From: Phycicoccus duodecadis
GTDB taxonomy: Bacteria; Actinomycetota; Actinomycetes; Actinomycetales; Dermatophilaceae
Direction: 5' to 3'
Length of the DNA stretch: 64,000 nt
NCBI RefSeq assembly: GCF_002846495.1
Contig: NZ_PJNE01000001.1
Location: 1,612,001 to 1,676,000 of the forward strand
The position numbers were made by a program, and so were the translations under genes. The notes below the pieces were generated by a model. It made no database searches. It was not told the DNA's origin and saw only the letters and a program-made list of their open reading frames with translations. Below, piece after piece: positions 10,181 to 54,699 of this stretch; the first letter of the stretch is position 1; each line of letters begins with the position of its first letter.

Positions 10181-10227
10181 GCGGCGCTGCGCGCCGCGGC
10201 CCTGCGGGCGGCGCTGGCGCGCCGTCC
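10181..10227. repeat. GC-rich hairpin cluster
   Basis: Three adjacent short hairpins occur in a row: GCGGCG/CGCCGC around CTGCG, GCCC/GGGC around TGC, and a GGCG/CGCC pair. The cluster resembles REP-like palindromic sequence or a terminator near the ends of the NERD gene and of the minus-strand gene at 10243. Confidence 0.35.
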
Positions 10228-10242
10228 TCGGTCCGGTGGTGT

Positions 10243-10935: not shown

Positions 10936-10998
10936 CCTTCGGTCGGAGTGGCACCAACCGCCCTCATCGGAGGAGCCACAGCGGATATCGTTCCACTC

Positions 10999-11739: not shown

Positions 11740-11854
11740 GAGACGGGTTCAGGGCCCGCGCCGCACACCTTCGCTAGGACCGACAATCCGCCACGCCGCT
11801 CCCGGCGAGATCCACTTCCGACCCTCTTGATCACAATTAGGGCATGCTGCACGC

Positions 11855-13051: not shown

Positions 13052-13082
13052 ATGCCGTCCGGACCCCAGTCGCACGTTTGCA

Positions 13083-15106: not shown

Positions 15107-15146
15107 AATCCGTAGGTTGTGGGTTCGAGTCCCACGGGGCCCACCA
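15107..15146 (+). repeat. attR: 3' fragment of a tRNA gene
   Basis: The 40 bases comprise the end of an anticodon arm, a variable loop, a full T arm (GTGGG-TTCGAGT-CCCAC, 15119-15135), the 3' acceptor strand GGGGCCC, the discriminator A and CCA (15144-15146). The bases upstream do not fold into the missing 5' half, so it is not a working tRNA. This is what remains at the distal end after an element integrates into a tRNA 3' end. From the anticodon-stem remnant (AATCCGT) the donor is probably tRNA-Lys(CTT), recalled from typical actinobacterial sequences. Confidence 0.75.
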
Positions 15147-15181
15147 CCTACACGCCCTGGCGCCCACTGAGTCCCGCTCGG

Positions 15182-15205
15182 GAGTCGCACGGCATCCCGC
15201 GACTC
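15182..15205. terminator. Hairpin just after the tRNA fragment
   Basis: GAGTCGC (15182-15188) pairs with GCGACTC (15199-15205) around a 10-base loop. It sits where the terminator of the original tRNA gene would be, on the chromosomal side of the junction. There is no T-run. Confidence 0.4.
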
Positions 15206-15291
15206 TCGCGGGGCGCCGGGCCCTGTCCAGGAACCGGGCTTCCTCGCTGCCTCGCACGGGCCCACGACCGTGACCATGGGATCCTGACGTC

Positions 15292-33853: not shown

Positions 33854-34035
33854 CTGGATCTCCTCGACGGACGGGCCACGCCGACCGGGCCGGACGGCCG
33901 GGGCTGGCGACGAAAGGGCCATCGTCCACGAAACGAACAACGGCGCAGACGGCAGGCCCTACCGTGTCATCGTAACGACCTGCCGACGTGGGCCGCAGGG
34001 GTCCGATGCCCGGCGGTCAAGAAGGGGACCCCATC

Positions 34036-37250: not shown

Positions 37251-38716
37251 GCACCCTCACCCCCACCAGAGCGCCGGCGCCGGCGCCCGGCGGCGGACGC
37301 CGGCCGACACTATCGACCGGCGCGGTCACCGGTGCCGCGGTCTTCCTCGCCGTGGCTCTGGTGGTGGTCATCGCCTGGCAGGGCCCCGTCGTGGCGCTGG
37401 CCGGCCTCGGCCTCGTCGTCGCCGTCGCCGTCGTCACCCGGCGAGCCTCGATCGCCATCTCGGTGCCGCTCCTCGCCGCCCCGGTGGCGCTGCACGAGAT
37501 CCCCGGCGGCCAGGGGGCCCAGGTCATCCACCTGCTCCTGGTCGCGGTCATCGCCGTCATCGTGCTGGCCGGACTGCGCGGCCAGCTGCCCGCTCCCCCA
37601 CGCACGGTGCTGGCGGGCCTGGTCTTCGTCGTCGCCCTGCTCATCACGACCCTCACCTCGATCGACCCGTTCCGCGGCCTCAAGGTGTCGGTCAACCACG
37701 TCCTCGGGCTGTTGGTCTGCGTCGCCGCCGCGGCGGTGGCGCGCCACTCCCACGCGTACCTGCGAGAGGTCCTGCGGCTGTGGACCCTCGCCTCGCTCAC
37801 GGTCGTCCTGCCCAACCTGCCGGAGGCGGCGCGGGGCTCGGCCCGCTTCGGCGGCGCGATCGTCAGTGACCGGGCCCAGGGCGTCTTCGCCCAGCCCAAC
37901 GACTTCGGTGAGTTCTCCCTCTACTGCATCGGTGCCGCGCTGGCCCTCACGGTGGCGGCCGAGCGGCGTCTCGACCGGGTCATCGGCATCGTCGGGGTCC
38001 TGGCCGGCACGGCGGCCCTGGGCCTGTCGTTCTCGCGCGGCTCCTGGATCGGCGCCGGCGCGATGGTGGTCCTCGCCTGCGTGCTCGCGCCCCGGCTCCT
38101 GCGCCGCCTCGTCCCGGTGGTCGCCGGCGCCTCGGTGGTGGCCGCCGTCGCCACCGCGCTGGCCATCCCCCCGTTCGGGCTGCTGGCCGAGCGGCTGGCA
38201 TCCCTGACCTCCGGCGCCCCCAACCCGCAGGACGACCGCCCGGTCATCTACGCCGAGGCCTTCCGTCTCTGGCTCGAGCGCCCCTTCCTCGGGCACGGCC
38301 CTGGCACGTTCGCCCAGCTGGCCCAGGAGCCGGGCGCCCTCCTGGTGCGCCGACCCTACATCCACGCCCACTCGGTGCCCCTCGACCTCGCGGCCGAGAC
38401 GGGCCTGGTGGGGGTCCTGGCCCTCGCCCTCGTCACGCTGACGGCGATGGTCGTGGTGCTGCGGGCACTGGGCCGCCTACGTCGTGTCGGCGACCCGCGG
38501 GCCGTGCGCGAGCGCACCACTCTGGCGGTCCTCGCGGCCCTGATGGGCGGGGTGGCCGTGCACGGGCTCATCGACGTCAACTACACCAACCCGTTCCTCA
38601 TCCCGGTCGCGTGGACCATGCTCGGGCTCGTCCTGGGCACGGCCGCGAGGGCCCACGACGGCGGGTCGGCGCCGGGCCCTCGCGGCGCCGCGCGGACGGG
38701 CGTGGACCGCCCGTGA
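37247..38716 (+). CDS. O-antigen ligase/Wzy-type polymerase
   Basis: A 489-residue polytopic membrane protein with about eleven predicted helices and a large outside loop. 'GVFAQPNDFGEFSLYCIGAAL', 'LGLSFSRGSWIGAGAM' and 'RPFLGHGPGTFAQL...HAHSVPLDLAAETGLVGVLAL' are the typical blocks of the Wzy_C/O-antigen ligase family. It probably joins lipid-linked repeat units outside the membrane. It begins and ends in four-base overlaps inside the plus-strand operon. Confidence 0.82.
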   Translation: MSTLTPTRAPAPAPGGGRRPTLSTGAVTGAAVFLAVALVVVIAWQGPVVALAGLGLVVAVAVVTRRASIAISVPLLAAPVALHEIPGGQGAQVIHLLLVAVIAVIVLAGLRGQLPAPPRTVLAGLVFVVALLITTLTSIDPFRGLKVSVNHVLGLLVCVAAAAVARHSHAYLREVLRLWTLASLTVVLPNLPEAARGSARFGGAIVSDRAQGVFAQPNDFGEFSLYCIGAALALTVAAERRLDRVIGIVGVLAGTAALGLSFSRGSWIGAGAMVVLACVLAPRLLRRLVPVVAGASVVAAVATALAIPPFGLLAERLASLTSGAPNPQDDRPVIYAEAFRLWLERPFLGHGPGTFAQLAQEPGALLVRRPYIHAHSVPLDLAAETGLVGVLALALVTLTAMVVVLRALGRLRRVGDPRAVRERTTLAVLAALMGGVAVHGLIDVNYTNPFLIPVAWTMLGLVLGTAARAHDGGSAPGPRGAARTGVDRP

Positions 38717-40287
38717 GCACCCCCTCGGACGTCGCGGCGCGCAACCCCGTCACGCGCCAGGTCGCCCGGGCGGGTGCGCTGACCGGGGTCGGCGCGGTGG
38801 TCTCGGCCGTCATGGGCTTCGCGTTCACGGTCGTGGCGGGTCGCAGCCTGGGCACCGCGGGCGCCGGTGTCGTCTTCGTCATCACCTCCCTCTTCACCAT
38901 CGCCACGACCATGCTCAAGCTGGGTTCCGACACCACGTCGGTGCGGGTGGCGGCCCGGCTGGTGGCGCTCGGGCGGGGGCGCGACGTGCGCTCGGTCGTG
39001 CGCCGCCTGGGCGTCCCGGTGCTGGCCCTCACCCTGGTCACCGCCGCCGTCGTCATCGCCCTGGCGCCCGAGGTCGCGCGGGCCGCCCTCGGCCGCTCCG
39101 TGTCGACCCCCGGAGCCGTCGCGGGGGTCGTCGTCCTCGCGCTCCTCATCCCGGCGCAGACCATGACCGTCATCCTCCTGGCGCTGCTGCGGGGCCTGGG
39201 CGACATCCGCACGCTGGTCCTCGTCGACCAGGTCCTCAAGCCCACCCTGCGCGTGGTCCTGGTCGGTGCCGCAGCCCTCGTCGTGCCCGGGGTGCTCGGG
39301 GTCACCGTCGCCTGGGTGCTGCCGGTGGCGGCGGGCATCGTCGTCACGGTCGTCATCCTGCGCCGACGGCTCGACGCCGCCGAGGCCGTGACGCCGTCGC
39401 TGGACCCGGAGGCCCTCGACGCGCCCGACGAGTCGTCGTCGCGCGCGCTGTGGGCCTACACGCTGCCGCGGGCGGTGGCGCAGGCCCTCGAGATCGTCAG
39501 CCTGAGCATCGGCGTGACGTTGGTGGGCCGGCTGGCCGGAGCCTCCGAGGCCGGTCTCTTCGGGGCGGTCAACCGCCTGGCCGTCGCCGGCATGCTGGTG
39601 TGGCAGGCCGTCCGCATCGTCATCTCCCCCAACATCGCGGCCCTGCTCACGAGCCACGACGTCGACGGCGTGCGGCGCCTGCACCAGACCGGCTCCGGAT
39701 GGATCGCCGCGCTGGCGTGGCCGGGCTACCTCGTGCTGGCCGCGGCCAGCCCCACCGTGCTGCGCCTGTTCGGCGACGACTTCGGGGCGGGCAGCGCCGC
39801 CCTCACCACGGTGGCCATCGCGATGCTGGTCCCCTCGCTCGTCGGGCCCGCCCAGTCGCTGGTCCTGATGGCCGGGTGGAGCACCCTCGGCCTCCTCGTC
39901 TCGGTGGCCGCGCTCGTCACGAACCTGGTCCTGATCTTCGCCCTCGTCCCCGAGCTGGGGGCGTTCGGCGCGGCCATCGCCTGGGGGGCGGCGCTCGTCG
40001 TCGAGAGCGCCCTCTACGTGGCCATCACGCGGGCCCGGCTCGGCATCTGGGCGGTCGGCCGCCCGGCGCTGGTCTCGGCAGCGGTCGCCACCGTCACGGT
40101 CGGCCTCCCCCTCGGGGTCGCCACCCTGTCGGGCGCCGGCGAGTACGTGGTCGTGGGCGTCGCGGCCCTGTCGCTGCTGGCGCACCTCGCCCTGCTGATG
40201 GTGCTGCGGCGCCACGTGCACCTCGACCAGTTCGTCCGGGCCCTGCGGCGTCGCGGGGCCCCCTCCTCCGAGAAGAGCCCGCGATGA
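38713..40287 (+). CDS. Wzx-type polysaccharide flippase (MOP superfamily)
   Basis: A 524-residue protein with about 14 predicted membrane helices. The start 'NPVTRQVARAGALTGVGAVVSAVMGFAFTVVAGRSLG' and the central 'AYTLPRAVAQALEIVSLSIGVTLVGRLAG' are typical of polysaccharide transport proteins of the MOP superfamily. It would flip lipid-linked repeat units across the membrane. The GTG at 38713 overlaps the polymerase stop (GTGA). Confidence 0.82.
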   Translation: MSTPSDVAARNPVTRQVARAGALTGVGAVVSAVMGFAFTVVAGRSLGTAGAGVVFVITSLFTIATTMLKLGSDTTSVRVAARLVALGRGRDVRSVVRRLGVPVLALTLVTAAVVIALAPEVARAALGRSVSTPGAVAGVVVLALLIPAQTMTVILLALLRGLGDIRTLVLVDQVLKPTLRVVLVGAAALVVPGVLGVTVAWVLPVAAGIVVTVVILRRRLDAAEAVTPSLDPEALDAPDESSSRALWAYTLPRAVAQALEIVSLSIGVTLVGRLAGASEAGLFGAVNRLAVAGMLVWQAVRIVISPNIAALLTSHDVDGVRRLHQTGSGWIAALAWPGYLVLAAASPTVLRLFGDDFGAGSAALTTVAIAMLVPSLVGPAQSLVLMAGWSTLGLLVSVAALVTNLVLIFALVPELGAFGAAIAWGAALVVESALYVAITRARLGIWAVGRPALVSAAVATVTVGLPLGVATLSGAGEYVVVGVAALSLLAHLALLMVLRRHVHLDQFVRALRRRGAPSSEKSPR

Positions 40288-44513: not shown

Positions 44514-45884
44514 TCAGCGCCCCTTGACGGCAGCCAGCCGGTCGAGGGCCTCCTGGCGCTCGGCCGCGTGGTCGACGACCCGCTCCGGGTAGCCGTGCGT
44601 GTAGCCGTCGGCGTGCTCCCACGGCTGATGCGCCGCCTTGCCGGGCAGGTGCCGCAGCTCGGGCACCCACCGGCGCACGTACTCGCCGTCGGGGTCGAAC
44701 TTCTCGCCCTGCGTCACCGGGTTGAACACCCGGAAGTACGGCGAGGCGTCCGTGCCCGTGCCGGCGACCCACTGCCAGCCGTGGTTGTTGGACGCGAGGT
44801 CGCCGTCGGCCAGGTGGTCGAGGAAGTGCCGCGCCCCCACCGGCCACCAGACGTGCAGGTCCTTGGTGAGGAAGCTGGCCGTGATCATCCGGACGCGGTT
44901 GTGCATCCACCCCTCGGCCAGCAGCTGGCGCATCCCGGCGTCGACCACGGGATAGCCGGTCTCGCCCCGCTTCCAGGCCTCGATGGCGTCCTCGGGCGCG
45001 TCGTAGCGCATGCCCTGCAGGGCCGGGCGCAGGTCGTGCCACGCGCTCCGCGGGTTGTGGTGCAGCACGTCGGCGTAGAACTCGCGCCAGGCCAGCTCGG
45101 TGCGGAAGGAGTCGGCGCCCGTGCCGCTGCGCTCGCCCAGCTGCGCCAGCAGGGTGCGCGGGTGCACGACCCCCAGCTTGAGGTAGGGCGACATCCGCGA
45201 GGTGGCGTCGAGGGCCGGTCGGTCGCGGTCGTCGTCGTAGCCCGCCAGGTGGTCGTCGCGGAAGGCCCGGAAGCGACGCAGCGCCGCGTCCTCGCCGGCG
45301 GGTGGGAGCGCGGGCAGGTCGGGCGCGGAGAGCGCGGCGTCGAGGGCCGCGGTGGCGTCGGCGTCGTTGCGGGCGTGCCGCAGCGGGAGCTCGCGCGGGG
45401 TGGGCGCGGGGTCGGGCCACCCGTGCCGGCGCCAGGCCCGCGCGAACGGCGTGAAGACCTTGTACGGCTCGTCGGAGCCGTTGGTGACGAGGCCGGGGCC
45501 GACGGCGTAGGGCGTGCCGGTCTCGACCCAGTCGACCCCGGTCGCGCCCAGCGCCTCCCGGACCGCGTCGTCGCGCCGACTCCCCGAGGGGGTGGTCTCG
45601 CGTGAGACGTGCAGCGACGAGGCCGAGACCCGCTGGGCCAGCGCCGGCAGCACCGCGCGAGGGTCCCCGTGCAGCAGGGTGAGCGCACCTCCCAGGGACT
45701 CGTCGAGGGCGCGCAGGTTGGCGGCCAGCCAGGCCCGCCGCACGGGGCCGCCGCCGTCCCAGAGCCGCGGATCGACGACGAACGCGATCACCAGGTCGGC
45801 GCCCCCGGCGGCGTCACGCGCGGCGAGCAGGGCCGGGTGGTCGCGGCGGCGCAGGTCGCGGCGCAGCCAGAGCACGGCGGTCAC
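44514..45884 (-). CDS. phr: Deoxyribodipyrimidine photo-lyase (class I CPD photolyase)
   Basis: A 456-residue cryptochrome/photolyase protein. The N-terminal antenna domain starts 'VLWLRRDLRRRDHPALLAA'. The C-terminal FAD-binding domain has 'ARTELAWREFYADVLHHNPRSAW'-like sequence, 'TGYPVVDAGMRQLLAEGWMHNRVRM', and 'DLASNNHGWQWVAGTGTDASPYFRVFNP', the class I signature. It repairs UV-induced cyclobutane dimers using blue light. The GTG start at 45884 has AAGGAGG upstream. It is the last gene of a tightly packed operon headed by the promoter beside litR, which predicts light induction. Confidence 0.92.
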   Translation of the reverse strand: MTAVLWLRRDLRRRDHPALLAARDAAGGADLVIAFVVDPRLWDGGGPVRRAWLAANLRALDESLGGALTLLHGDPRAVLPALAQRVSASSLHVSRETTPSGSRRDDAVREALGATGVDWVETGTPYAVGPGLVTNGSDEPYKVFTPFARAWRRHGWPDPAPTPRELPLRHARNDADATAALDAALSAPDLPALPPAGEDAALRRFRAFRDDHLAGYDDDRDRPALDATSRMSPYLKLGVVHPRTLLAQLGERSGTGADSFRTELAWREFYADVLHHNPRSAWHDLRPALQGMRYDAPEDAIEAWKRGETGYPVVDAGMRQLLAEGWMHNRVRMITASFLTKDLHVWWPVGARHFLDHLADGDLASNNHGWQWVAGTGTDASPYFRVFNPVTQGEKFDPDGEYVRRWVPELRHLPGKAAHQPWEHADGYTHGYPERVVDHAAERQEALDRLAAVKGR

Positions 45885-45896
45885 GGTGCCTCCTTG

Positions 45897-46673
45897 TCAG
45901 CTGAGACGGTCGAGGACGACCGGGAGCAGGAAGAGCATCCCGAGCGACCAGGTGAGGTGGGTGACGATGGGGCCGAGGATGCCGCCGGTGACCCGCCGCT
46001 GGAGCCCCACGACGACCCCGACCAGCGCCGCCGCGAAGACCAGCAGCGGGATGCCCGAGGTGGCGGTGACCAGCGCGTAGACGATGGTGGTGACGGCCAC
46101 GGCGTGTCTGCGCCCGACGCCGGCGTACAGGGCGCCGCGGAAGTACAGCTCCTCGGCCACCCCGTTGACGATGGTGACGACCGCGACCACGGCCAGCGAC
46201 CCGTACCGCGCGTGGTCGAGCAGGGTCAGCACGGGGTCGCGCAGGAACGGGATGCGGGCCACCACCACCGCCCCGGCGAGGAACAGCCCCAGCAGCATCA
46301 CCCCGAGGGCCAGGGACTGCACCACGGCCCGGCTCTCGACGTCGCCGTGCCGGGTGTGGCCGCGCCCGAGGTGCAGGGGGCCGGAGACGAGCGCCCCCAC
46401 GGCCCAGGCCGCCGCCAGGGCGAAGGTGGCGACGTAGAACATCGGGTCGCCGGGCTCGATGCGCAGCGCCCAGGTGAGCAGCGCCGCCCCGACCAGCAGG
46501 GTCACCACCACCACCACGCGCCGGCGCCGGAAGGCCCAGTCGGGCTCGGTGTGGTCCCGCGGGACGGGGTCGACGAGCGCCGCCCGGACGAACGAGCGCA
46601 GCTCGGTCACGGGGTGGAGGCGCCACCCGCCCGACGCCCGCGGACCCCCGGGGGCGCGACCACCGGCCGTCAC
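45897..46673 (-). CDS. CPBP-family intramembrane metalloprotease
   Basis: A 258-residue protein with about seven membrane helices. 'VNGVAEELYFRGALYAGVGR' carries the EExxxR motif, followed by 'LVFAAALVGVVVGLQRRVTGG' and 'PIVTHLTWS' with the later His. This is the CPBP (Abi/CAAX-like) family. Some members cleave prenylated proteins; most bacterial members have no known substrate. The GTG at 46673 overlaps the preceding stop by four bases, and the photolyase gene starts 12 bases after its end, so it belongs to the LitR-linked operon. Confidence 0.8.
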   Translation of the reverse strand: MTAGGRAPGGPRASGGWRLHPVTELRSFVRAALVDPVPRDHTEPDWAFRRRRVVVVVTLLVGAALLTWALRIEPGDPMFYVATFALAAAWAVGALVSGPLHLGRGHTRHGDVESRAVVQSLALGVMLLGLFLAGAVVVARIPFLRDPVLTLLDHARYGSLAVVAVVTIVNGVAEELYFRGALYAGVGRRHAVAVTTIVYALVTATSGIPLLVFAAALVGVVVGLQRRVTGGILGPIVTHLTWSLGMLFLLPVVLDRLS

Positions 46674-47695
46674 GACGACGAGCCGCGGCCGCCTCCGGCC
46701 CACGAGGGGTCGGCCGCGTTCACCCGGGCAGGGTCGACGGTGCCGGGCTCCGGGCGCGGGTCGGCGTCGTCGCCGGCGATCGCGTCGGTGACGCCCCGGT
46801 CGTAGCCGAGCGGGCCACCGGCGGGAGCACCCACCAGGTCGTCGATGTCGTGCTCCTCACAGACGACCTCGTGCAGCAGGCTCTCGACCAACGGTTTGGC
46901 CAGCCCGGTGGGCACCGGGGTGACGAAACCGACCCACTGCGAGGCGAGCCGCGGCGTGAGCACGGGGACGGTGACGATGGTGCGGGGCATCAGCCCGGCC
47001 AGGCGCGCGAACCGCATGATCATCTCGCGGTAGGTGAGGACCTCGGGCCCGCCGATGTCGAAGGTGCGGGTGACCCCCGGCGGCAGGTCGGCCGCCCCCA
47101 CCAGGTAGTGCAGGACGTCACGGACCGCGATCGGCTGGATGCGGTTGTCGAGCCACTTGGGCGTGATCATGAACGGCAGCCGGGTGGTCAGGTGGCGCAG
47201 CATCTCGAACGACGCCGAGCCCGACCCCAGGATGATGGCGGCCTGCAGGACCGCGGTCGGCACGCCGCTGGCCATCAGCAGGTCGCCCACCTCGACGCGG
47301 GAGGCGAGGTGGTCGCTGAGCGGCCCCTCGGCGGGGTGCAGCCCCGAGAGGTAGACGATGCGGCCGACCTCGGCCTCGAACGCCGCCCGGCCGAAGCCGG
47401 AGGCCATCTCACGGTCGCGCTCGACGAACCCGCCGTCGGCGTCCATCGAGTGCAGGAGGTAGTAGGCCACGTCGACGTCGGCGAGCGCCTGCGCGAGCGT
47501 CGAGCGCGACGTGGCGTCGCCCTCGACGACCTCGGCGTCGGCGAGCCACCAGCGGTCGCGGAGCTTGCCGGCGTCGCGGGTGAGCACCCGCACCGTCCAC
47601 CCCTCCTCGAGCAGGGCCGGCACCAGGCGGGAGCCGATGTAGCCGGTGACCCCGGTGACCAGGGCCCGCCGGCCGGTGCCGCGTCGTCCGCTCAC
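46670..47695 (-). CDS. NAD(P)H-binding atypical SDR protein
   Basis: A 341-residue protein. The N-terminal Rossmann fold has 'ALVTGVTGYIGSRLVPALLEEGWTVRVLTRD' (GxxGxxG), then 'VVEGDATSRSTLAQALADVDVAYYLLHSM' and 'IVYLSGLHP', the layout of atypical SDRs (NAD(P)H-binding, NmrA-like). It lacks the YxxxK pair of classical SDRs. A C-terminal 'SQWVGFVTPVPTGLAKPLVESL' region is shared with actinobacterial relatives often annotated as NAD-dependent epimerases. Overlapping starts and stops on both sides place it firmly in the LitR-linked operon. Confidence 0.8.
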   Translation of the reverse strand: MSGRRGTGRRALVTGVTGYIGSRLVPALLEEGWTVRVLTRDAGKLRDRWWLADAEVVEGDATSRSTLAQALADVDVAYYLLHSMDADGGFVERDREMASGFGRAAFEAEVGRIVYLSGLHPAEGPLSDHLASRVEVGDLLMASGVPTAVLQAAIILGSGSASFEMLRHLTTRLPFMITPKWLDNRIQPIAVRDVLHYLVGAADLPPGVTRTFDIGGPEVLTYREMIMRFARLAGLMPRTIVTVPVLTPRLASQWVGFVTPVPTGLAKPLVESLLHEVVCEEHDIDDLVGAPAGGPLGYDRGVTDAIAGDDADPRPEPGTVDPARVNAADPSWAGGGRGSSS

Positions 47696-48123
47696 CGTCG
47701 GTCCAGCGTCTCCTTGAGCTGGGCGGCCGTGCGGTCGCCCAGGCGCTCCAGGAGGGGCTTCATGATCGGCCCGAGGAAGCGCGCCGGGCCGGAGAAGTCG
47801 AAGTCGGCCCGGTAGGTGACCGACGAGCCGGTGCCGTCAGGGCGGACGGTGATGGTGTCGTGGCTGGTCGTGGACCTGTTGCGGCCGACGATGACGAACT
47901 CGGGCTCGGCCACCTTCTCGGTCGTGTACTCGAGCTCGACGGAGTTGCCGGCGAAGGTCGAGACGTTCTTGTAGACCGTGCCCACCCCGCCGTCACCCGA
48001 CACCCGCTCGCAGGAGTCGGTGCCCGCGTCCCACTCGGTGGCGTTGCGGAAGTCGACGAGGTACGGGAAGACCACCTCCGGTGCCGCGCTCGTACGGATC
48101 GTGCGTTCGACGGTCGTGGTCAT
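47692..48123 (-). CDS. SRPBCC-family protein
   Basis: A 143-residue START-like helix-grip protein ('VERTIRTSAAPEVVFPYLVDFRNATEWDAG' at the N-terminus, 'GPIMKPLLERLGDRTAAQLKETLD' as the long C-terminal helix). The fold binds hydrophobic ligands such as lipids or polyketides, matching the lipid-modifying neighbours. No catalytic residues are evident. It lies seven bases after the CFA-type methyltransferase gene and overlaps the next gene by four. Confidence 0.8.
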   Translation of the reverse strand: MTTTVERTIRTSAAPEVVFPYLVDFRNATEWDAGTDSCERVSGDGGVGTVYKNVSTFAGNSVELEYTTEKVAEPEFVIVGRNRSTTSHDTITVRPDGTGSSVTYRADFDFSGPARFLGPIMKPLLERLGDRTAAQLKETLDRR

Positions 48124-48130
48124 GGGAGGC

Positions 48131-49375
48131 CTACCTTCTGGCGAGACGGATCTGTGCGACGTCCAAGTACCCGGTCGCGAAGCCTGCCTCACAGTACGCG
48201 AGGTAGAAGTCCCACATCCTGCGGAAGGTCTCGTCGAAGCCGTGCTGCTGGATCTCGCTCCAGTTGGCGTTGAAGGTCTCCCGCCAGCGGTGCAGGGTCT
48301 CGGCGTAGTCGGCGCCGAAGCCGTGCACCCGCTCGACGCGCAGCGTGGTGGAGTCGCGCGAGACGTCACGGATGGCCTGGAGCGAGGGGATCAGCCCGCC
48401 CGGGAAGATGTACTTCTGGATCCACCCGAAGCTGTGCTTGGTGGCCAGCAGCCGGTGGTGCTCCATGAGGATGGCCTGCACGGCCACCGCCCCACCGGGC
48501 GCCAGCAGCTCGTCGATCTTGCGGAAGTAGGTCGCCCAGTACTCCTCGCCCACGGCCTCGATCATCTCGACGCTGACGATGCTGTCGAACTGCCCAGTGG
48601 TCTCGCGGTAGTCCTGGAGCAGGACGGTGACCCGGTCGGACACGCCGGCGGCCTCGATCCGCTGCATGGCCAGGGCCCGCTGCTCGGCCGAGAGGGTGAC
48701 CGAGGTGACCGTGGCGCCGCGAGCGGCGGCGCGTAGGGCGAGCTCGCCCCACCCCGTGCCGATCTCGAGCACGCGGCTGCCCGCCCGGACGTCGGCGGCG
48801 TCGAGGATGGCCTCGACCTTGCGTACCTGGGCCTCGTGCAGGTCCTGCTCGGCCAGCGGCCGGGCCGGGTCGAAGAGGGCCGAGCTGTACGACATCGAAG
48901 GGTCGAGGAAGGCGGCGAACAGGTCGTTCGAGAGGTCGTAGTGCGCGCTGATGTTGCTCCGCGAGCCCTCGAGGGTGTTGCGCATGGCCTGGGGGATGGC
49001 GCGGTCGACGACACCGCGCAGGGCCAGCAGCGGCTTGGGGACCAGCTCGCCCATCCGGGCCGCGAAGGGCATCAGGGCCTGCGCGAGGTCGGTGCCCTCG
49101 GCGGCCTTCCAGTCGCCGGCCATGTAGGCCTCGCCGAGGCCGATCTTCGGGTGGGCCTCGAGGCGGCGGAACATCGCGCGGGGGCGGACGACCTCGATGA
49201 CGGGGCTGTCGGGGCCGCCGTTGCCGACCACGGTGCCGTCGGGGTAGCGCATCCGCACCGGCATCGGCTTGACGGCGACCTCGGTGATGGCCTTCGCGAC
49301 GGCGCCACGAGTGAGGATGCGGGGGAAGCCGAGCCGCGGGGCGGCGAGCTCGAGGCGGGGCGTGTCGGCGGTCAT
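48131..49375 (-). CDS. CFA synthase-type fatty-acyl methyltransferase (left copy)
   Basis: A 414-residue SAM-dependent enzyme. After an N-terminal lipid-binding part, 'GSRSNISAHYDLSNDLFAAFLDPSMSYSSALF' is the CFA-family signature, 'VLEIGTGWGELALRAAARGA' the SAM-binding loop and 'DSIVSVEMIEAVGEEYW' the bicarbonate/active-site Glu region. Family members methylate double bonds of phospholipid acyl chains to cyclopropane, methyl-branched or furan-precursor products. It is coupled to DUF1365 and an FAD oxidoreductase, the same trio seen in light- or singlet-oxygen-regulated operons elsewhere. A divergent-side paralogue lies at 52601. The product is therefore not necessarily a plain cyclopropane. 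Confidence 0.85.
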   Translation of the reverse strand: MTADTPRLELAAPRLGFPRILTRGAVAKAITEVAVKPMPVRMRYPDGTVVGNGGPDSPVIEVVRPRAMFRRLEAHPKIGLGEAYMAGDWKAAEGTDLAQALMPFAARMGELVPKPLLALRGVVDRAIPQAMRNTLEGSRSNISAHYDLSNDLFAAFLDPSMSYSSALFDPARPLAEQDLHEAQVRKVEAILDAADVRAGSRVLEIGTGWGELALRAAARGATVTSVTLSAEQRALAMQRIEAAGVSDRVTVLLQDYRETTGQFDSIVSVEMIEAVGEEYWATYFRKIDELLAPGGAVAVQAILMEHHRLLATKHSFGWIQKYIFPGGLIPSLQAIRDVSRDSTTLRVERVHGFGADYAETLHRWRETFNANWSEIQQHGFDETFRRMWDFYLAYCEAGFATGYLDVAQIRLARR

Positions 49376-50127
49376 CGCACACTCTCCAGGCTGTGGTCGG
49401 GACGGGGGCGGACGGGCAGCCTCCGCAGCCACAGCCAGATGCCGTGGACCCGGATGAGCCCGCTCACCCGCTGGGGCATCAGCGGGTACCGCAGCGCGGC
49501 CGTGGCCACCGCCGAGGTGGTCGCCCGCCTCGGCGCGCCGGTCACGGTCGCGGTCACCAGTGGTTCGTCGCGGACGCGAAGTCGGATGGCCACGCCGACC
49601 TTCGAGGGCGTCAGGGTGAGACGGATGGCGTAGTCGCCCTCGACGTCGTTGAACGGCGAGACGAAGAACTCCTTGGGGAGGTCGGCCCGGCCACCGGCGT
49701 CCGGGCGCAGCACGTAGGCGTGGCGCTGGCCGTAGGTGTTGTGGACCTCGACCAGCACGGCCCGCAGCGCGCCGCCGGGGGCGAAGACCCAGAAGGCGCT
49801 CATGGGGTCGAAGACGTGGCCCAGCACGCGGGCGTGGGCAAGCATCACGACCCGGTCGCCGGGGGTGGTGTCGACGCCGTCGCGCTCGAGCACCCGCAGG
49901 ACGTTGGCCTTGAGCGCAGGGATGCCGGGGTTCGCCGACAGGTGGTCCTCGCCGCGGAAGCCGGCCACGGGGCGCAGCCAGCGCGGCAGGCGGGGCATCG
50001 CGTCGAGGTCGACCAGCCACTGCGTGTGCCGGTGACTGAACGAGTGCTTGACCGGGCGGAACCGGGTGTGGTGCACCGTTCCCACGACGAGCGCGGGCAG
50101 GGTGGGGAGGTCGGCGGTGCTGGTCAC
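49372..50127 (-). CDS. DUF1365-family protein
   Basis: A 251-residue protein of unknown activity: 'ALVVGTVHHTRFRPVKHSFSHRH' near the N-terminus, 'LLAHARVLGHVFDPMSAFWVF' and 'VLVEVHNTYGQRHAYVL' in the middle, all DUF1365 hallmarks with several conserved His. DUF1365 genes almost always occur between an FAD-dependent oxidoreductase and a CFA-type methyltransferase, as here, so a lipid-modifying role is likely. The GTG at 50127 overlaps the preceding stop (GTGA) and its own stop overlaps the methyltransferase start. Confidence 0.88.
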   Translation of the reverse strand: MTSTADLPTLPALVVGTVHHTRFRPVKHSFSHRHTQWLVDLDAMPRLPRWLRPVAGFRGEDHLSANPGIPALKANVLRVLERDGVDTTPGDRVVMLAHARVLGHVFDPMSAFWVFAPGGALRAVLVEVHNTYGQRHAYVLRPDAGGRADLPKEFFVSPFNDVEGDYAIRLTLTPSKVGVAIRLRVRDEPLVTATVTGAPRRATTSAVATAALRYPLMPQRVSGLIRVHGIWLWLRRLPVRPRPDHSLESVR

Positions 50128-51410
50128 CAGGTGACCCCGAAGGCCGCGGCGGCCTCTACGCCCGAGCGGCAGCCGTCCTCGTGGAAGCCCCAGCCCTGGT
50201 ACGCGCCGGCGAAGGCGGTGCGCTCGGTGGTGATCTCGGGGATGCGGCGCTGGGCGCGCACCGCGGCGAGGTCGTAGAGGGGGTGGGTGTACCGCATGGT
50301 GGCGACGACGCTAGCGGGGTCGATGCGCTCCGTGGCGTTGAGCGTCACGTAGAACGGCTCGCTCGCGGGCAGGCCCTGGAGGCGGTTCATCCAGTACGTG
50401 ACGATGGCCCCCTGGGCGGGGTCGTCGCCGAGCAGGTAGTTCCACGACGAGCGCGCCAGGCGCGCCCGCGGCATCAGCGAGCCGTCGCGGTGCAGGACGG
50501 TCTCGTTGCTGCTGTAGCGGAACGCGCCGAGGACCTCCTTCTCGGCCGGGGTGGCATCGGCCAGGAGGCGCAGGGCGTCGTCGGCGTGGGTGGCCAGCAC
50601 CACGCGGTCGTAGCGGTCGAGCCGGCCGGCGGCGGTGCGCACCTCGACGCCGTCGTGGGTGCGGGTGACCGCGGTGACGGCGTCGCCGCTGCGCACGTCG
50701 GCGAGGCGGGCGGCCAGGGCGTCGACGTAGGTGCGCGAGCCGCCCACGACCGTCATCCACTGCGGGGAGTCGCCCACCGAGAGCATCCCGTGGTGGGCGA
50801 GGAAGCGGAACAGGTAGCGAGCCGGGTAGTCGAGCGCGTCGCCCTCGCCGCTGGACCACACGCACGCCACGACGGGGATGGCGTAGTAGCGGACGAACGA
50901 CTCCGGGAAGCCGTGCTCGCGGATGAACTCGCCGTAGGTGGTGGTGTCCTCGTCGTCGCTCTGCTCGAGGAAGGCGCGGGCGACGGTGTGGAAGCGCTTG
51001 ACGGCCCGCAGCATCCCCACGTACTCACGGTCGAGGAGCTGGCGGGGGCGGGCCACGAAGCCCTTGACCCCCCGGCCGCCCGCGTACTCGAGCCCGGTGG
51101 CCTCGTCGCGGATGGACATCGACATCTCGGTGTCGTGCGTCTGCACGCCGAGCTCGCCGAAGAGGCGGCGCAGGTAGGGGTAGGTGCGGTCGTTGTGCAC
51201 GATGAAACCGCTGTCGACCCGCAGGTCACCGGCGGCCGTGGGCACGGTGTGCGTGTGCGCGTGGCCCCCCAGACGGTCCTCGGCCTCGACCAGCGTCACG
51301 TCGTGCCGGGTGGCCAGGACATGGGCTGCCGTGAGCCCCGAGACCCCCGCCCCGACGACGACGACGCGCTCGCGCGCCGGGGAGCGCTCGGAGATGGACA
51401 GGGCAGGCAT
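50124..51410 (-). CDS. FAD-dependent amine oxidase-like oxidoreductase
   Basis: A 428-residue flavoprotein. 'RVVVVGAGVSGLTAAHVLATRHDVTLVEAEDRLGGHAHTH' is the dinucleotide-binding fold and RxGG-type second motif; 'VDSGFIVHNDRTYPYLRRLF' and 'VVGGSRTYVDALAARL' are typical of the group found with DUF1365 and CFA-type enzymes. It probably oxidises acyl chains or their methylated products. It heads the seven-gene leftward operon. The ATG at 51410 is chosen over the GTG at 51416: a -10 TACGGT (51423-51418) lies seven bases upstream of the ATG, which predicts a leaderless transcript. Confidence 0.85.
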   Translation of the reverse strand: MPALSISERSPARERVVVVGAGVSGLTAAHVLATRHDVTLVEAEDRLGGHAHTHTVPTAAGDLRVDSGFIVHNDRTYPYLRRLFGELGVQTHDTEMSMSIRDEATGLEYAGGRGVKGFVARPRQLLDREYVGMLRAVKRFHTVARAFLEQSDDEDTTTYGEFIREHGFPESFVRYYAIPVVACVWSSGEGDALDYPARYLFRFLAHHGMLSVGDSPQWMTVVGGSRTYVDALAARLADVRSGDAVTAVTRTHDGVEVRTAAGRLDRYDRVVLATHADDALRLLADATPAEKEVLGAFRYSSNETVLHRDGSLMPRARLARSSWNYLLGDDPAQGAIVTYWMNRLQGLPASEPFYVTLNATERIDPASVVATMRYTHPLYDLAAVRAQRRIPEITTERTAFAGAYQGWGFHEDGCRSGVEAAAAFGVTW

Positions 51411-51417
51411 GGTCACG

Positions 51418-51447
51418 ACCGTAGAACCTTTCGGAAAGACTCGTCAA
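51418..51447 (-). promoter_or_regulatory. Leftward promoter of the FAD-CFA-photolyase operon
   Basis: Minus strand: -35 TTGACG (51447-51442), an 18-base spacer and -10 TACGGT (51423-51418), followed after seven bases by the ATG at 51410. The -35 box lies inside the 11-bp repeat array, so a bound LitR/CarH tetramer would block RNA polymerase. Confidence 0.6.
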
Positions 51448-51463
51448 AGGTTTGTCAAATCTA
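51420..51463. repeat. Four 11-bp-phased direct repeats: candidate CarH/LitR operator
   Basis: Four tandem 11-mers: CGTAGAACCTT, TCGGAAAGACT, CGTCAAAGGTT and TGTCAAATCTA (51420, 51431, 51442, 51453). The last two share GTCAAA, the outer two are weaker; the AA core recurs every 11 bases. CarH of Thermus binds as a tetramer to tandem 11-bp direct repeats overlapping the -35 of its target, and the array here overlaps both divergent -35 boxes. Confidence 0.6.
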
Positions 51464-51480
51464 CTCCCACGACGTACCGT
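51452..51480 (+). promoter_or_regulatory. Rightward promoter of litR
   Basis: Plus strand: -35 TTGTCA (51452-51457), a 17-base spacer and -10 TACCGT (51475-51480), seven bases before the ATG at 51488, again a leaderless arrangement. It is the mirror image of the leftward promoter. Confidence 0.55.
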
Positions 51481-51485
51481 CGTGG
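51467..51485. promoter_or_regulatory. Inverted repeat over the litR -10 and start site
   Basis: CCACGACG-TAC-CGTCGTGG: perfect 8-bp arms around three bases, covering the -10 box and ending three bases before the start codon. It is a second operator candidate, perhaps for a different regulator or for fine autoregulation. Confidence 0.5.
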
Positions 51486-51487
51486 TC

Positions 51488-52555
51488 ATGAGACGTTCGG
51501 TTCCGCCGTCGATGCGGATTGGTGAGCTAGCCGCCCGTGTCGGTGTGAGTACCCACGTCCTGCGGGCCTGGGAGTCGCGCTACGCCCTCCTCACGCCGAC
51601 CCGCTCGCAGGGTGGCTACCGCCTGTACGGCGCCGACGACGAGCGCCGGGTCCGCGAGGTCCTCAGCCTGCGCGACCAGGGGGTCAGCGCGATGGAGGCC
51701 GCCCGCCAGGTGCTGGCGGCCGAGCGCGCCGGCACCGCGGCCGCCACCGGTGTCGCCGCCGAACCCGGCCCCGACGAGGCCCGGCCGCCGCAGGACGCCG
51801 AGGCGCGGCTCCGGCTCGACCCCCCGCTGCTCGTCGCGCAGCTCCTCGACGCCATCACCGCCCTCGACGAGGACCGCGCCCACGCCGTCCTCGACACCGC
51901 CTTCCTCGACCGGTCGGTCGAGAGCGCCGTCGTCGACGTGCTGGTCCCGTTCTTCGTGCGGGTCGGCGAGATGTGGGAGCTCGGCCGCATCGGCATCGCC
52001 CAGGAGCACTTCGCCAGCAGCCTCGTGCGCCGGCGCCTGGGGGCCCTGTCGATGACCTGGGGTCTCGGCACCGGCCCGGTGGCCGTGCTGGCCTGCCCTC
52101 CCGGGGAGTTCCACGACATCATCCTGATGAGCTTCGGGGTGCTGCTGGGGCGCGCCGGCTGGCGGGTCCGCTACCTCGGCGAGGACACCCCCGTCCCGTC
52201 GCTGGTCTCGGCCTGCCGGCTCACCAAGCCCGACGCGGTGGTGCTCGCCTCGCGCCGCCCGTCCGGCTTCCGGTCCCACGCGCGCCAGCTCAAGGCCCTG
52301 CACGAGCAGTTCCCGCTGTGGATCGCCGGCCGGGGCACCACCCCCCGGGTCCTCACCGAGATCGGCTGCAACCACCTCGGGCCCGACATCGTGGCCGACG
52401 TCGCGCTGCTCACCGAGGCCGCCCGCACCCGCCGGCGGGCCGCTGAGGCCGCCGCTCGTCAGGGCGCCCGCACCGCCGCCCCGGCCGCTGCCGTCCACCC
52501 CGCCGACCACGCCACGCCATCCGAGGCACGGTCGGACTCCGAACCGCTTGCGTGA
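51488..52555 (+). CDS. litR: CarH/LitR-type B12-dependent MerR photoreceptor regulator
   Basis: A 355-residue regulator. Residues 9-78 are a MerR helix-turn-helix ('MRIGELAARVGVSTHVLRAWESRYALLTPTRSQGGYRLYG'). Residues 108-190 are the four-helix cap with the CarH signature W-x9-E-H (Trp163, Glu173, His174). Residues 195-330 are a B12-binding Rossmann domain with 'CPPGEFHDIIL' (His209, the likely lower cobalt ligand). The spacing His174 to His209 (35) equals His142 to His177 in Thermus CarH. In the dark, adenosyl-B12 holds the tetramer on DNA; light breaks it. The residue after the cap Trp is Glu164 rather than the His of Thermus CarH. It is divergent from the photolyase operon. Confidence 0.85.
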   Translation: MRRSVPPSMRIGELAARVGVSTHVLRAWESRYALLTPTRSQGGYRLYGADDERRVREVLSLRDQGVSAMEAARQVLAAERAGTAAATGVAAEPGPDEARPPQDAEARLRLDPPLLVAQLLDAITALDEDRAHAVLDTAFLDRSVESAVVDVLVPFFVRVGEMWELGRIGIAQEHFASSLVRRRLGALSMTWGLGTGPVAVLACPPGEFHDIILMSFGVLLGRAGWRVRYLGEDTPVPSLVSACRLTKPDAVVLASRRPSGFRSHARQLKALHEQFPLWIAGRGTTPRVLTEIGCNHLGPDIVADVALLTEAARTRRRAAEAAARQGARTAAPAAAVHPADHATPSEARSDSEPLA

Positions 52556-52600
52556 CCTCGCGGCACCTCGCCGCGCCCGCACCCGACGCCAGGAGCACCC

Positions 52601-53902
52601 ATGACGCTGACCGACCAGGGCACGACGACGCCGACCGCCCGCTCCGCCGGGATCGCCGGGCGCATCGAGGCCGCGCTGCGCCCCCTCATCGCCGGGCCCT
52701 TGCCGGTGCGCCTGCGCGCCTGGGACGGGTCCGAGGCCGGGCCGGCCGACGGCACCCTCGTCGAGCTGCGCACCCCGCAGGCGCTCACCCGCCTGCTGTG
52801 GCACCCGGGCGAGCTGGGCGCGGCCCAGGCCTACGTCACCGGTGAGCTCGAGGTCGAGGGCGACATCGGCGACGCGCTCGACCTGGTCCGCGAGACCGTG
52901 GCCGCCCGCGACATCCCCCCGCTGACCGCCGCCCGGGTCGGCCGGTTGCTGCCCGACCTGGTGCGCCTCGCCCGCGACACCGGCGCCCTGGCCCGGCCCC
53001 CGGCCCCGCCGGCCACCCAGGCCGTCATCAAGGGCCGCCTGCACTCGCTGGCCCGCGACCGCGCGTCCATCAGCCACCACTACGACCTGTCGAACGACTT
53101 CTACCAGTTCCTGCTCGACCCCCACATGGCGTACTCGTCGGCCTTCTTCGTCGACGGCCCCGACATGCCGCTCGAGGCCGCGCAGGCCGCCAAGCTCGAC
53201 CTCGTCTGCCGCAAGGTCGGCCTCACCGAGGGCACCCGCTTCCTCGACATCGGGTGCGGCTGGGGCTCGCTGTCGCTGTATGCCGCCGAGCACTTCGGGG
53301 CGCAGGTCACCGGTGTCACCATCGCCGCCGAGCAGAAGGCCTTCATCGACGCGCGGATCCGCGAGCGCGGCCTCGAGGACCGCGTGCAGATCCAGCTGCG
53401 CGACTACCGCGAGATCGACTCCGGCCCGTACGACGCCGTCGCGTCCCTCGAGATGGGCGAGCACGTCGGCGAGAAGAACTACGCCACCTACGCCTCGGTG
53501 CTCCACCGCAGCGTCAAGCCCGGTGGCTACGTGCTGGTGCAGCAGATGTCGCGCCGCGGCGTGCACCCGGGCGGCGGCCCCTTCATCGAGCAGTTCATCG
53601 CGCCCGACATGACGATGCGCCCGGTCGGCGAGACCCTGAACTACCTGCAGGACGCCGGCTTCGAGGTCCGCGGGGTGCACGCCCTGCGCGAGCACTACGT
53701 GTGGACCGTCGACGCCTGGCACCGCACCCTCGAGGAGAACTGGGACCGCGCCGTCGAGCTCATCGGCGAGGAGGGCGCGCGGGTCTGGCGCCTCTACCTG
53801 GTCGGCGGCTCACAGGCCTTCCGCGACAACCGGATGGGCGTCGACCAGCTGCTGCTGCGCCGCCCCGGTGGCCCGCCCGTCGTCTCCGACCCGGCGCGCT
53901 GA
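52601..53902 (+). CDS. CFA synthase-type fatty-acyl methyltransferase (right copy)
   Basis: A 433-residue SAM-dependent enzyme with the CFA signature 'ISHHYDLSNDFYQFLLDPHMAYSSAFF', the SAM loop 'FLDIGCGWGSLSLYAAEHFGA' and the active-site region 'DAVASLEMGEHVGEKNY'. 'VQQMSRRGVHPGGGPFIEQFIAPDMTMRP' near the end is a more classical CFA-like acyl-binding segment than in the left copy. CCAGGAG precedes the ATG at 52601. It lies 45 bases after litR and shares one base with the DUF1295 gene (TGATG), so all three form a rightward operon. Confidence 0.85.
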   Translation: MTLTDQGTTTPTARSAGIAGRIEAALRPLIAGPLPVRLRAWDGSEAGPADGTLVELRTPQALTRLLWHPGELGAAQAYVTGELEVEGDIGDALDLVRETVAARDIPPLTAARVGRLLPDLVRLARDTGALARPPAPPATQAVIKGRLHSLARDRASISHHYDLSNDFYQFLLDPHMAYSSAFFVDGPDMPLEAAQAAKLDLVCRKVGLTEGTRFLDIGCGWGSLSLYAAEHFGAQVTGVTIAAEQKAFIDARIRERGLEDRVQIQLRDYREIDSGPYDAVASLEMGEHVGEKNYATYASVLHRSVKPGGYVLVQQMSRRGVHPGGGPFIEQFIAPDMTMRPVGETLNYLQDAGFEVRGVHALREHYVWTVDAWHRTLEENWDRAVELIGEEGARVWRLYLVGGSQAFRDNRMGVDQLLLRRPGGPPVVSDPAR

Positions 53903-54699
53903 TGGGCGCCGGCTTCTCGGGCGGGACGCTCGTGGTGGTGCTCCTGGCCTCGGCGCTGACGTCGCTGGTCGCGATGGCCGTCACGGCCGTCGTGGCGCGC
54001 AGCCGCGGCAAGTACGCGGTCGTCGACATCACCTGGGGGCTGGTCTTCGTCGCCATCGGCTGGGTCGCCTACCTGGTGGGGCAGCACTCGGCGCGCTCGC
54101 TGCTGCTGGCGGTGCTGGTCACCCTGTGGGGCGGCCGGCTCGCGTGGCACATCCGCGGGCGGGCGCTGGGCCAGGGCGAGGACCCCCGCTACGAGAAGCT
54201 GCTGTCGGCCGTGCCGCCCGAGCAGCGCTTCCGCTACGCGCTGATGCGCATCTTCGCCACCCAGGGCGTCGCGGCCTGGTTCGTCTCGCTACCGCTGCAG
54301 GTCGCCGCCGCCACCGACTCGGCGCTGGGCTGGGTCGCGGCCCTCGGCGTGGTCGTCTGGCTGGTCGGGGTGACCTTCGAGGGGGTGGGTGACGCACAGC
54401 TCAAGGCGTTCAAGGCCGACTCCTCGAACAAGGGCACGGTCATGGACCGGGGCCTCTGGGCCTGGACGCGGCATCCCAACTACTTCGGCGACTCCGCCGT
54501 CTGGTGGGGGATGTGGGTCGTCGCGGCCGAGGCGTGGCCGGGCGTGCTGACGGTGCTCTCGCCCGTGGTCATGACCTACTTCCTGGCGTTCGCCACCGGG
54601 GCCCGGCTGCTCGAGTCCGAGATGGCCAAACGGCCCGGGTACCCCGAGTACATGGAGCGCACCAGCATGTTCTTCCCGCTGCCGCCGAAGAAACGCTGA
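53902..54699 (+). CDS. DUF1295-family (steroid 5-alpha-reductase-like) membrane protein
   Basis: A 265-residue membrane protein with about seven helices. 'KYAVVDITWGLVFVAIGWVAYLV', 'WHIRGRALGQGEDPRYEKL' and 'GLWAWTRHPNYFGDSAVWWGMWVVA' followed by 'ESEMAKRPGYPEYMERTS' are the DUF1295 hallmarks; the RHPNYFG region corresponds to the NADPH site of 5-alpha-reductase/ICMT-fold proteins. It likely reduces a double bond in a lipid. It is coupled to the CFA-type gene; such pairing is frequent and points to reduction of a methylene intermediate to a methyl-branched chain (inference). Confidence 0.85.
   Translation: MGAGFSGGTLVVVLLASALTSLVAMAVTAVVARSRGKYAVVDITWGLVFVAIGWVAYLVGQHSARSLLLAVLVTLWGGRLAWHIRGRALGQGEDPRYEKLLSAVPPEQRFRYALMRIFATQGVAAWFVSLPLQVAAATDSALGWVAALGVVVWLVGVTFEGVGDAQLKAFKADSSNKGTVMDRGLWAWTRHPNYFGDSAVWWGMWVVAAEAWPGVLTVLSPVVMTYFLAFATGARLLESEMAKRPGYPEYMERTSMFFPLPPKKR

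Follow-up and report, generated by a model that had tools for sequence, protein, structure and literature searches.

Furan fatty acids (FuFAs) are made in Rhodobacter sphaeroides and Rhodopseudomonas palustris from phospholipid acyl chains, which UfaM methylates, UfaD desaturates and the DUF1365 protein UfaO oxygenates; FuFA is rapidly lost on exposure to singlet oxygen, and cells unable to make it are killed by singlet oxygen (PMC7380195). FuFA genes are core targets of the photo-oxidative sigmaE-ChrR (ECF11) response (PMC6852236). In Pseudomonas putida and P. mendocina, genes for phrB, an SDR, an FAD oxidoreductase and ufaM respond to light under the control of a class II LitR together with a LOV protein, phrB and ufaM being induced 25-33-fold (PMC9758184). 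CarH operators consist of tandem 11-bp repeats, nAnnTnnACAn, placed over the promoter (PMC8156234), and in the singlet-oxygen response of Chlamydomonas, the genes for CFA1, CFA2, DUF1365, DUF1295 and DUF2177 need SAK1 for induction (PMC4067076). Here, we describe a locus centered on litR in a stretch of 64,000 nucleotides from Phycicoccus duodecadis (NZ_PJNE01000001.1, positions 1,612,001 to 1,676,000; "the window"), which is likely a light-gated locus for membrane and DNA photoprotection that combines LitR-controlled FuFA synthesis with a photolyase.

The window carries the same three ufa families as R. sphaeroides and R. palustris, in the order of RPA2571-2570-2569, which are ufaD-ufaO-ufaM of R. 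palustris; it differs from the R. sphaeroides genes, which are under sigmaE/ChrR, in having a B12-type LitR, a photolyase, and two extra genes encoding a second CFA-type methyltransferase (CFA2) and DUF1295 (PMC7380195). The Pseudomonas class II regulon, as far as it is described in the cited sections, is similar in its LitR-family repressor and in having phrB, SDR, FAD oxidoreductase and ufaM genes together as a single polycistronic unit, whereas it uses a TGTACA-N12-TGTACA operator and LOV antirepression where the window has a B12 signature and 11-bp repeats of TTTGACR, and it differs from the divergent two-arm layout of the window with its CFA2, DUF1295, SRPBCC and CPBP genes (PMC9758184). 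With the CarH/LitR class, the window protein shares the domain layout and the residues for adenosylcobalamin (AdoCbl), and its predicted operator resembles those of the class in part, with 11-bp tandem repeats over the -35 element, but the targets described for that class in the cited sections are carotenoid genes whereas the neighbors here are FuFA and photolyase genes, and A2 of the operator is not kept (PMC8156234, PMC11796333). Compared with sigmaE-ChrR (PMC6852236), the sensor is different, and no ECF or ChrR gene occurs among the ten genes of the locus, the rest of the genome not having been searched. The Chlamydomonas response shares the CFA, DUF1365 and DUF1295 gene set under a eukaryotic regulator, and its CFA2, listed as a coclaurine N-methyltransferase, is nearer to the FufM type than the window CFA2 (PMC4067076).

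A first-pass annotation of the window, made from the sequence, had suggested an undescribed membrane photoprotection pathway. That suggestion is not supported in this form, as the FAD/DUF1365/CFA genes are ufaDOM (PMC7380195) and Pseudomonas has a described LitR-family phrB-SDR-FAD-ufaM operon (PMC9758184). Relative to that case, in which LitR governs light-induced phr and ufaM, the actinobacterial form with its B12-type LitR is a variant; the features that appear to be new here are CFA2, DUF1295 and control by a B12-type LitR within Actinomycetota. A literature search, which is weak evidence given its partial coverage, found neither a FuFA role for DUF1295 nor a link between B12-type LitR and FuFA in Actinomycetota.

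Gene content and order around litR

Pfam matches and gene-model checks assigned ten genes at the litR locus to two runs that diverge from a short gap. The minus-strand run, in order of transcription, consists of a ufaD-like FAD oxidoreductase, DUF1365, a CFA-type methyltransferase, SRPBCC, SDR, CPBP and photolyase, and the plus-strand run of litR, CFA2 and DUF1295. Matches on the open-reading frames (ORFs) were to photolyase, Rce1-like CPBP, NAD_binding_10/NmrA, Polyketide_cyc2, DUF1365, Amino_oxidase, MerR plus B12-binding_2, CMAS and DUF1295. The tenth ORF, 48366-49382, had no Pfam match because the left-run CFA occupies another frame, as the coding sequence 48131-49375, which scored 294.9 bits to CMAS in a search of the organism's own genome. 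Later starts were adopted for SRPBCC (48123) and DUF1295 (53902). Within the left run, UfaD/UfaO, UfaO/UfaM and SRPBCC/SDR each overlap by 4 bp, gaps of 7 and 12 bp separate UfaM/SRPBCC and CPBP/phr, and SDR overlaps CPBP, the start of which is uncertain; in the right run, litR and CFA2 are 45 bp apart and CFA2 and DUF1295 overlap by 1 bp.

Table 1 Features of the litR locus (window positions) and operator-like sites in related genomes
Feature	Position	Strand	Evidence
phr, FAD-type DNA photolyase, 456 aa	44514..45884	-	Pfam FAD_binding_7 2.3e-81, DNA_photolyase 5.9e-40
CPBP (Rce1-like) membrane protein, start uncertain	45897..46703	-	Pfam Rce1-like 2.4e-12
SDR / NmrA-like NAD(P)-binding protein	46670..47695	-	Pfam NAD_binding_10 6e-14, NmrA 9.7e-14
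SRPBCC (Polyketide_cyc2) protein, 143 aa, start corrected	47692..48123	-	Pfam 1.5e-18
ufaM-like acyl methyltransferase (CFA1), 414 aa	48131..49375	-	Active-site pattern S then EAQY
ufaO-like DUF1365 protein, 251 aa	49372..50127	-	
ufaD-like FAD oxidoreductase, start likely the leaderless ATG at 51410 (GTG 51416 in the longest ORF)	50124..51410	-	Pfam Amino_oxidase 7.7e-26
Predicted ufaD promoter: -35 TTGACG (51447-51442), 18-bp spacer, weak -10 TACGGT (51423-51418)	51418..51447	-	Read from sequence, largely conserved in alignment
Predicted LitR operator: 11-bp tandem repeat TTTGACAAACC TTTGACG, over both divergent -35 elements	51442..51459	-	Genus conservation
Predicted litR promoter: -35 TTGTCA (51452-51457), 17-bp spacer, weak -10 TACCGT (51475-51480)	51452..51480	+	Sequence and intergenic alignment
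litR, CarH-type B12 photoreceptor repressor, 355 aa, ATG at 51488	51488..52555	+	MerR_1 5.4e-15, B12-binding_2 4.2e-15
CFA2, CMAS-family methyltransferase, 433 aa, pattern SEHQY	52601..53902	+	Pfam CMAS, tree, active-site columns
DUF1295 membrane protein, 265 aa, steroid/sterol C=C-reductase-like fold	53902..54699	+	
Operator-like sites with 0-1 mismatch	L202 2984 (G021:C24); L199 2994 and L200 (G452:C7); L198 3034 (G449); L201 3036 (G021:C36)		

All ten families are present around litR in ten relatives' loci (L031-L037, L039, L042, L079), in agreement with the first-pass description of ten families in two divergent, tightly coupled runs, and this recurrence speaks against a chance arrangement. 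The litR locus of L043 lacks SRPBCC and CFA2, that of P. elongatus (L044) holds only phr, litR and DUF1295, and those of L038, L040 and L041 lie on short contigs; the locus sets used in the different counts of this study overlap in part. In Phycicoccus sp. HDW14 (L042), LitR, UfaO, SDR and phr each match two ORFs instead of one, which points to errors in the assembly or to decay, and its LitR, split by a frameshift, is among those that miss the full light signature.

Since the FAD-DUF1365-CFA genes match ufaD-ufaO-ufaM, their chemistry is already described. Identities to plasmid homologues from Azospirillum/Paracoccus, which belong to operons of the same layout and are not the characterized R. 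sphaeroides or R. palustris sequences, were 41/39% for UfaD, 35/33% for UfaO, and 42/38% for UfaM. EAQY follows the first active-site column in 66 of 74 CFA1 rows and in all five plasmid homologues; the columns (C139/E239/H240/H266/Y317) are numbered as in E. coli CFA. UfaD, UfaO and UfaM were separate and together in 52 of 68 DUF1365-centered loci, six more contained natural fusions of UfaO and UfaM in one ORF (L111, L118, L120, L124, L126, L148), and the remaining ten had a truncated contig, a different methyltransferase, or DUF1365 standing alone. Across the phylum, DUF1365 was found in 52 of 396 sampled Actinomycetota genomes. On three alphaproteobacterial plasmids, FAD-DUF1365 lies beside a sigma-70-family gene, with a CFA gene adjacent in two of these. 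A Streptomyces plasmid (L175) and a Tsukamurella plasmid (L177) also carry the ufa trio, one of the two with a lipocalin gene and a SigK-named extracytoplasmic function (ECF)/anti-sigma pair and the other with DUF1295, a MerR regulator, SRPBCC and an MpaB-family oxygenase.

The LitR sensor and its predicted operator

LitR consists of MerR DNA-binding, B12 four-helix and Rossmann domains, as in CarH/LitR photoreceptors, and aligned to Thermus CarH (5c8d) across both domains with an E value of 1.1e-28. The Pfam model for the Rossmann-type B12 domain scored slightly below its cut-off (30.3 vs 32.1 bits), and the CarH alignment spans that domain. A sequence-mining study lists GxxW, EH, GxxH and GxxxP as the motifs of light-responsive cobalamin domains (PMC11796333), and in the window LitR these read GEMW, EH, GEFH and GEDTP, leaving all four intact, with W131, E141, H142 and H177 of TtCarH kept one to one. 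The motifs and the alignment bear out the first-pass identification of a B12-type LitR at the center of the locus. An ATP:cobalamin adenosyltransferase gene is present in the same genome. Relatives of litR were 74-87% identical in genomes named Phycicoccus or Nostocoides and 49% identical in P. elongatus; among LitR rows above 200 bits, GxxW-x9-EH was present in 30 of 33, and the same motif together with GxxH and GxxxP in 24 of 33.

The minus strand of the gap between the probable start codons (51411-51487) carries TTTGACAAACCTTTGACG; in an alignment of the window with 14 relatives, no other stretch upstream of litR is as well conserved. This sequence was the sole match within the window at up to three mismatches, compared to none in 100 shuffles, and it was found in all 12 genomes of the genus (11 exact, one with a single mismatch), with each copy located ~1.35 kb away from that genome's DUF1365 match. 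The first 11-bp repeat spans the plus-strand -35 and the second spans the minus-strand -35, so that the two gene runs, which the first-pass annotation had described as coupled, share one predicted operator. CAT occupies the 51410 start position in most rows of the intergenic alignment, and since an ATG (51488; 51410) lies 7 bp past the -10 in each direction, the litR and ufaD transcripts are both probably leaderless.

Compared with the CarH consensus, the repeat keeps the 11-bp period, T5, and ACA/ACG, and P. elongatus has three such repeats in tandem. The class II LitR operator, TGTACA-N12-TGTACA, was not present in the 51411-51487 intergenic stretch. A survey of TTTGAC-N5-TTTGAC over 88 loci, comparing 13.5 kb of LitR-upstream DNA with ~1.57 Mb elsewhere, found 13 exact, 3 one-mismatch and 7 two-mismatch sites upstream of LitR and 0, 5 and 15, respectively, outside it, where four of the five one-mismatch sites lie between ufaD and a SRPBCC-litR pair (L068, L072, L078 twice). 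The reversed half-site control gave 0 exact, 0 one-mismatch and 8 two-mismatch sites in all 88 loci. The same site is present in Ornithinibacter and Tetrasphaera metagenome-assembled genomes (MAGs; L040, L041), in which litR faces SRPBCC-SDR-CPBP. The putative operator and its occurrences elsewhere support a CarH-type dark repressor.

From the observed gene content, homology, order, motifs, operator conservation and fold, we arrive at the following scheme, in which induction by light, all of the products, and what CFA2 and DUF1295 do are inferred. In the dark, AdoCbl-bound LitR would occupy the 11-bp repeats in the litR-ufaD gap, shutting both divergent promoters; photolysis of AdoCbl by UV, blue or green light would cause LitR to leave, and both arms would be transcribed. 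UfaM would methylate an unsaturated acyl chain of a membrane phospholipid, UfaD would desaturate the methylated chain to a methylated diene, and UfaO would oxygenate the diene to FuFA, a quencher of singlet oxygen, with CFA2 probably adding a second methyl group and DUF1295 probably acting as a reductase in the same pathway. Phr would repair UV lesions, and SRPBCC, SDR and CPBP accompany LitR and phr. The earlier proposal that light triggers acyl methylation, reduction or oxidation together with DNA repair survives in part, in that genes for methylation and oxidation are tied to a photolyase.

CFA2 and DUF1295 as candidate enzymes of the pathway

In the tree, CFA2 forms a clade separate from UfaM and from coclaurine-N-methyltransferase-like enzymes, and it scored 182.8 bits to a CFA and 62.4 bits to coclaurine N-methyltransferase; the second methyltransferase of L122 scored 204.7 bits to the latter. 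EHQY was found in 23 of 32 rows labeled CFA2, and the third CFA of the genome reads CEHHY. FufM is 37.9% identical to Arabidopsis LIME1 (PMC10940516). The FufM-type class was set here by likeness to coclaurine N-methyltransferase, the FufM sequence itself not being compared, and assignment of CFA2 to this class was rejected, as it falls outside the clade taken as FufM-type. LIME1 is, presumably, itself coclaurine-N-methyltransferase-like. Among 52 complete loci, the second methyltransferase was CFA2-type in 12 and coclaurine-N-methyltransferase-like in nine, and no locus had both. CFA2 probably adds the second methyl group to give dimethyl-FuFA, doing in Actinomycetes what the differently derived FufM does elsewhere.

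DUF1295 modeled with the membrane fold of steroid/sterol C=C reductases over the whole chain, and profile alignment to these enzymes covered only ~70 residues around PNYFGD. It was found in 18 of the 52 complete loci, and in 15 of these no more than 130 bp separates it from an upstream UfaM or CFA2; it lies within 127 bp after UfaM, without CFA2, in L132, L134, L138, L139 and L140. An Acidobacteriota MAG (L047) has LitR-UfaD-UfaO-UfaM-DUF1295 followed by a coclaurine-N-methyltransferase-like gene, all on one strand. The modeled fold, the frequent coupling to ufaM or CFA2, and the singlet-oxygen induction of the DUF1295 family alongside CFA and DUF1365 genes in Chlamydomonas point to DUF1295 as probably an unrecognized FuFA-pathway enzyme and probably the NADPH-dependent C=C reductase of that pathway. 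Several observations weigh against assigning CFA2 and DUF1295 to FuFA synthesis, among them the position of CFA2 outside the FufM-type clade. DUF1295 was not in the fetched stretch of 34 of the 52 complete loci, occurred without DUF1365 in 53 of 344 genomes in a co-occurrence test that disregards phylogeny, and adjoins litR rather than ufaM in L043/L073, L066 and L044; it is therefore neither required for nor exclusive to ufa loci.

The strongest competing explanation, which we consider possible but doubtful, is that CFA2-DUF1295 forms a separate light-controlled lipid branch unrelated to FuFA, in which CFA2 makes a methylene or cyclopropane chain and DUF1295 reduces this to a saturated branched chain, whether 10-methyl (tuberculostearic-type) or another. 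This would agree with the C=C-reductase-like fold, with the placement of CFA2 as sister to the third CFA of the genome (100/97; a single long-branched row), with the presence of DUF1295 in 10 of the 12 CFA2-type loci, and with P. elongatus, where DUF1295 follows litR and ufaDOM is far away. However, DUF1295 follows UfaM without CFA2 in the five loci listed above, CFA2 has no His at the H266 column, and a distinct CFA3 and FAD_binding_4 pair (L055) resembles the published FAD-oxidoreductase/methyltransferase pair that makes 10-methyl stearate (PMC5660069). The L055 genes, at 9824-12873 (~261.3-264.4 kb of G000:C1), comprise the third CFA, the FAD_binding_4 oxidoreductase and a small upstream ORF.

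Returning to DUF1295 as a FuFA-pathway enzyme, a more specific and rather unlikely extension is that this protein, common to Actinomycetota, Acidobacteriota and green algae, is a membrane NADPH-dependent enone reductase acting on the reactive ene-dione left after FuFA traps singlet oxygen. It would detoxify this product and possibly let the 1,4-dione reclose to the furan, so that the scavenger would be recycled, and in Phycicoccus the resulting make-trap-reduce cycle would be switched by light via B12.

The photolyase-linked genes and the reach of LitR control

Other observations weigh against light control by LitR as proposed here. Near ufa genes, LitR is in the minority, being found in 9 of 18 loci of the family/order set and 7 of 50 of the phylum set. 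Several ufa-linked LitRs lack parts of the light signature or have no operator-like site found upstream, and a search near LitR in L116, L117, L119, L134, L139 and L145 found none. In the window, A2 of the CarH consensus is missing from the repeat, two clear copies are present rather than three or four, a consensus promoter scan listed neither promoter, and both -10 hexamers are weak.

LitR might instead report B12 status or oxidative stress, making the cluster a general membrane-stress operon; we regard this as improbable. It would be in keeping with M. xanthus CarA, which is not itself a B12 light sensor (PMC8156234), with the Pseudomonas class II LitR, which works with a LOV partner (PMC9758184), and with the sigma-70-family genes adjoining FAD-DUF1365 on the three plasmids, but the window LitR retains each of the four motifs of the light signature, and the same operon holds a photolyase, an enzyme functional only in light.

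The photolyase is accompanied by SRPBCC, SDR and CPBP, and this grouping beside LitR recurs in related genera, which speaks against the earlier view that the presence of these genes with phr is unusual. LitR was found in 15 of the 52 complete loci, 12 of them with phr, and phr without LitR in one. In L040, which includes phr, and L041, in which the contig ends before phr, SRPBCC-SDR-CPBP stands with LitR and there is no ufa gene in the locus; a DUF1365 match was absent in both MAGs, the completeness of which is not known. This distribution suggests two modules, one of ufaDOM with DUF1295 and often a second methyltransferase, the other of LitR-linked SRPBCC-SDR-CPBP-phr, which Phycicoccus appears to join on one predicted operator. 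That SRPBCC, SDR and CPBP instead belong to a longer FuFA pathway, as substrate carrier, extra redox step and membrane processing, would suit how tightly they are packed into the ufaM-phr interval of the Phycicoccus group, as well as the SDR and CPBP genes that follow ufaM in P. elongatus, but is hard to credit given L040 and L041 and the dispensability for FuFA of RSP1087-1089 in the R. sphaeroides ufa operon (PMC7380195), genes that may or may not be orthologous to those of the window. NCBIfam photolyase models matched phr below their cut-offs. CPBP keeps EExxxR and the third-motif His and has T in place of the usual second-motif His; because this His is absent, as in all 20 aligned relatives, CPBP may not be an active protease.

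Beyond the genus, CCTTNGACANACCTTNGACA was searched against seven related genomes at up to two mismatches, giving 24 sites, 10 of them with 0 or 1 mismatch, compared to no matches of the reversed control in any of the seven. In P. elongatus, where the DUF1365 gene and ufaDOM lie ~190 kb from the litR locus, an exact match stands 20 bp before the ufaD ORF. This ORF heads a row of UfaO, UfaM, SDR and CPBP matches, and opposite it is a gene for a 6-O-methylguanine DNA methyltransferase. G021, from a related genus, has a one-mismatch site that separates a second litR gene, of the MerR/B12-binding kind, from a polyprenyl-synthase gene, the sort of neighbor expected of a carotenoid-type LitR locus. 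Three of the eight other sites with 0-1 mismatch are at litR gaps (G022, G015, G449), and the remaining five are at genes for a TspO-type protein (G449), DUF2177 and a fatty-acid hydroxylase facing a TspO-type gene (G452), an SDR (G452), and pyridoxamine-oxidase-like proteins (G452, G021), which would make sense for photo-oxidative stress only in part. DUF2177 adjoins ChrR on an Aminobacter plasmid. These sites raise the possibility of a wider B12-LitR regulon.

In the window's own genome, the LitR switch looks local, as the only site at one mismatch to the looser pattern besides the locus operator is at a DUF4193 gene. This near-copy lies over the -35 of the gene (97 aa) at G000:C1:1596565-1596582 (L080 6566-6583), with others in L173 and L174, and was found in 3 of the 12 genus genomes at up to two mismatches; DUF4193 is possibly a second LitR target, or the site merely a similar promoter. 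One-mismatch operator-like sites were also observed at a UvrD/LigD locus in five genus genomes (L207, L210, L212, L217, L220), and the own genome's 3-mismatch site (L081) is likewise at a LigD gene.

Elsewhere in the window, positions 1-16000 have a G+C content of 0.63-0.69, compared to mostly 0.72-0.76 beyond; this region, which carries genes for NlpC/P60, AAA_10 (VirB4-like) and NERD proteins, may be an integrated conjugative element. Positions 31821-40287 hold an exopolysaccharide-type cluster with a glycosyl hydrolase, glycosyltransferases, a Wzy_C ligase and a Polysacc_synt flippase.

For the study of FuFAs, CFA2 is offered as a candidate second methyltransferase and the DUF1295 fold as a candidate for C=C reduction, with which the fate of FuFAs after trapping becomes a concrete question. 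The operator consensus provides a means of reading B12-LitR regulons in this family. The ufa genes stand beside different photo-oxidative regulators, namely sigma/anti-sigma genes, the Pseudomonas class II LitR, and the B12-type LitR described here, and light control of this locus would extend B12 light sensing from carotenoid genes to FuFA synthesis in a Gram-positive phylum.

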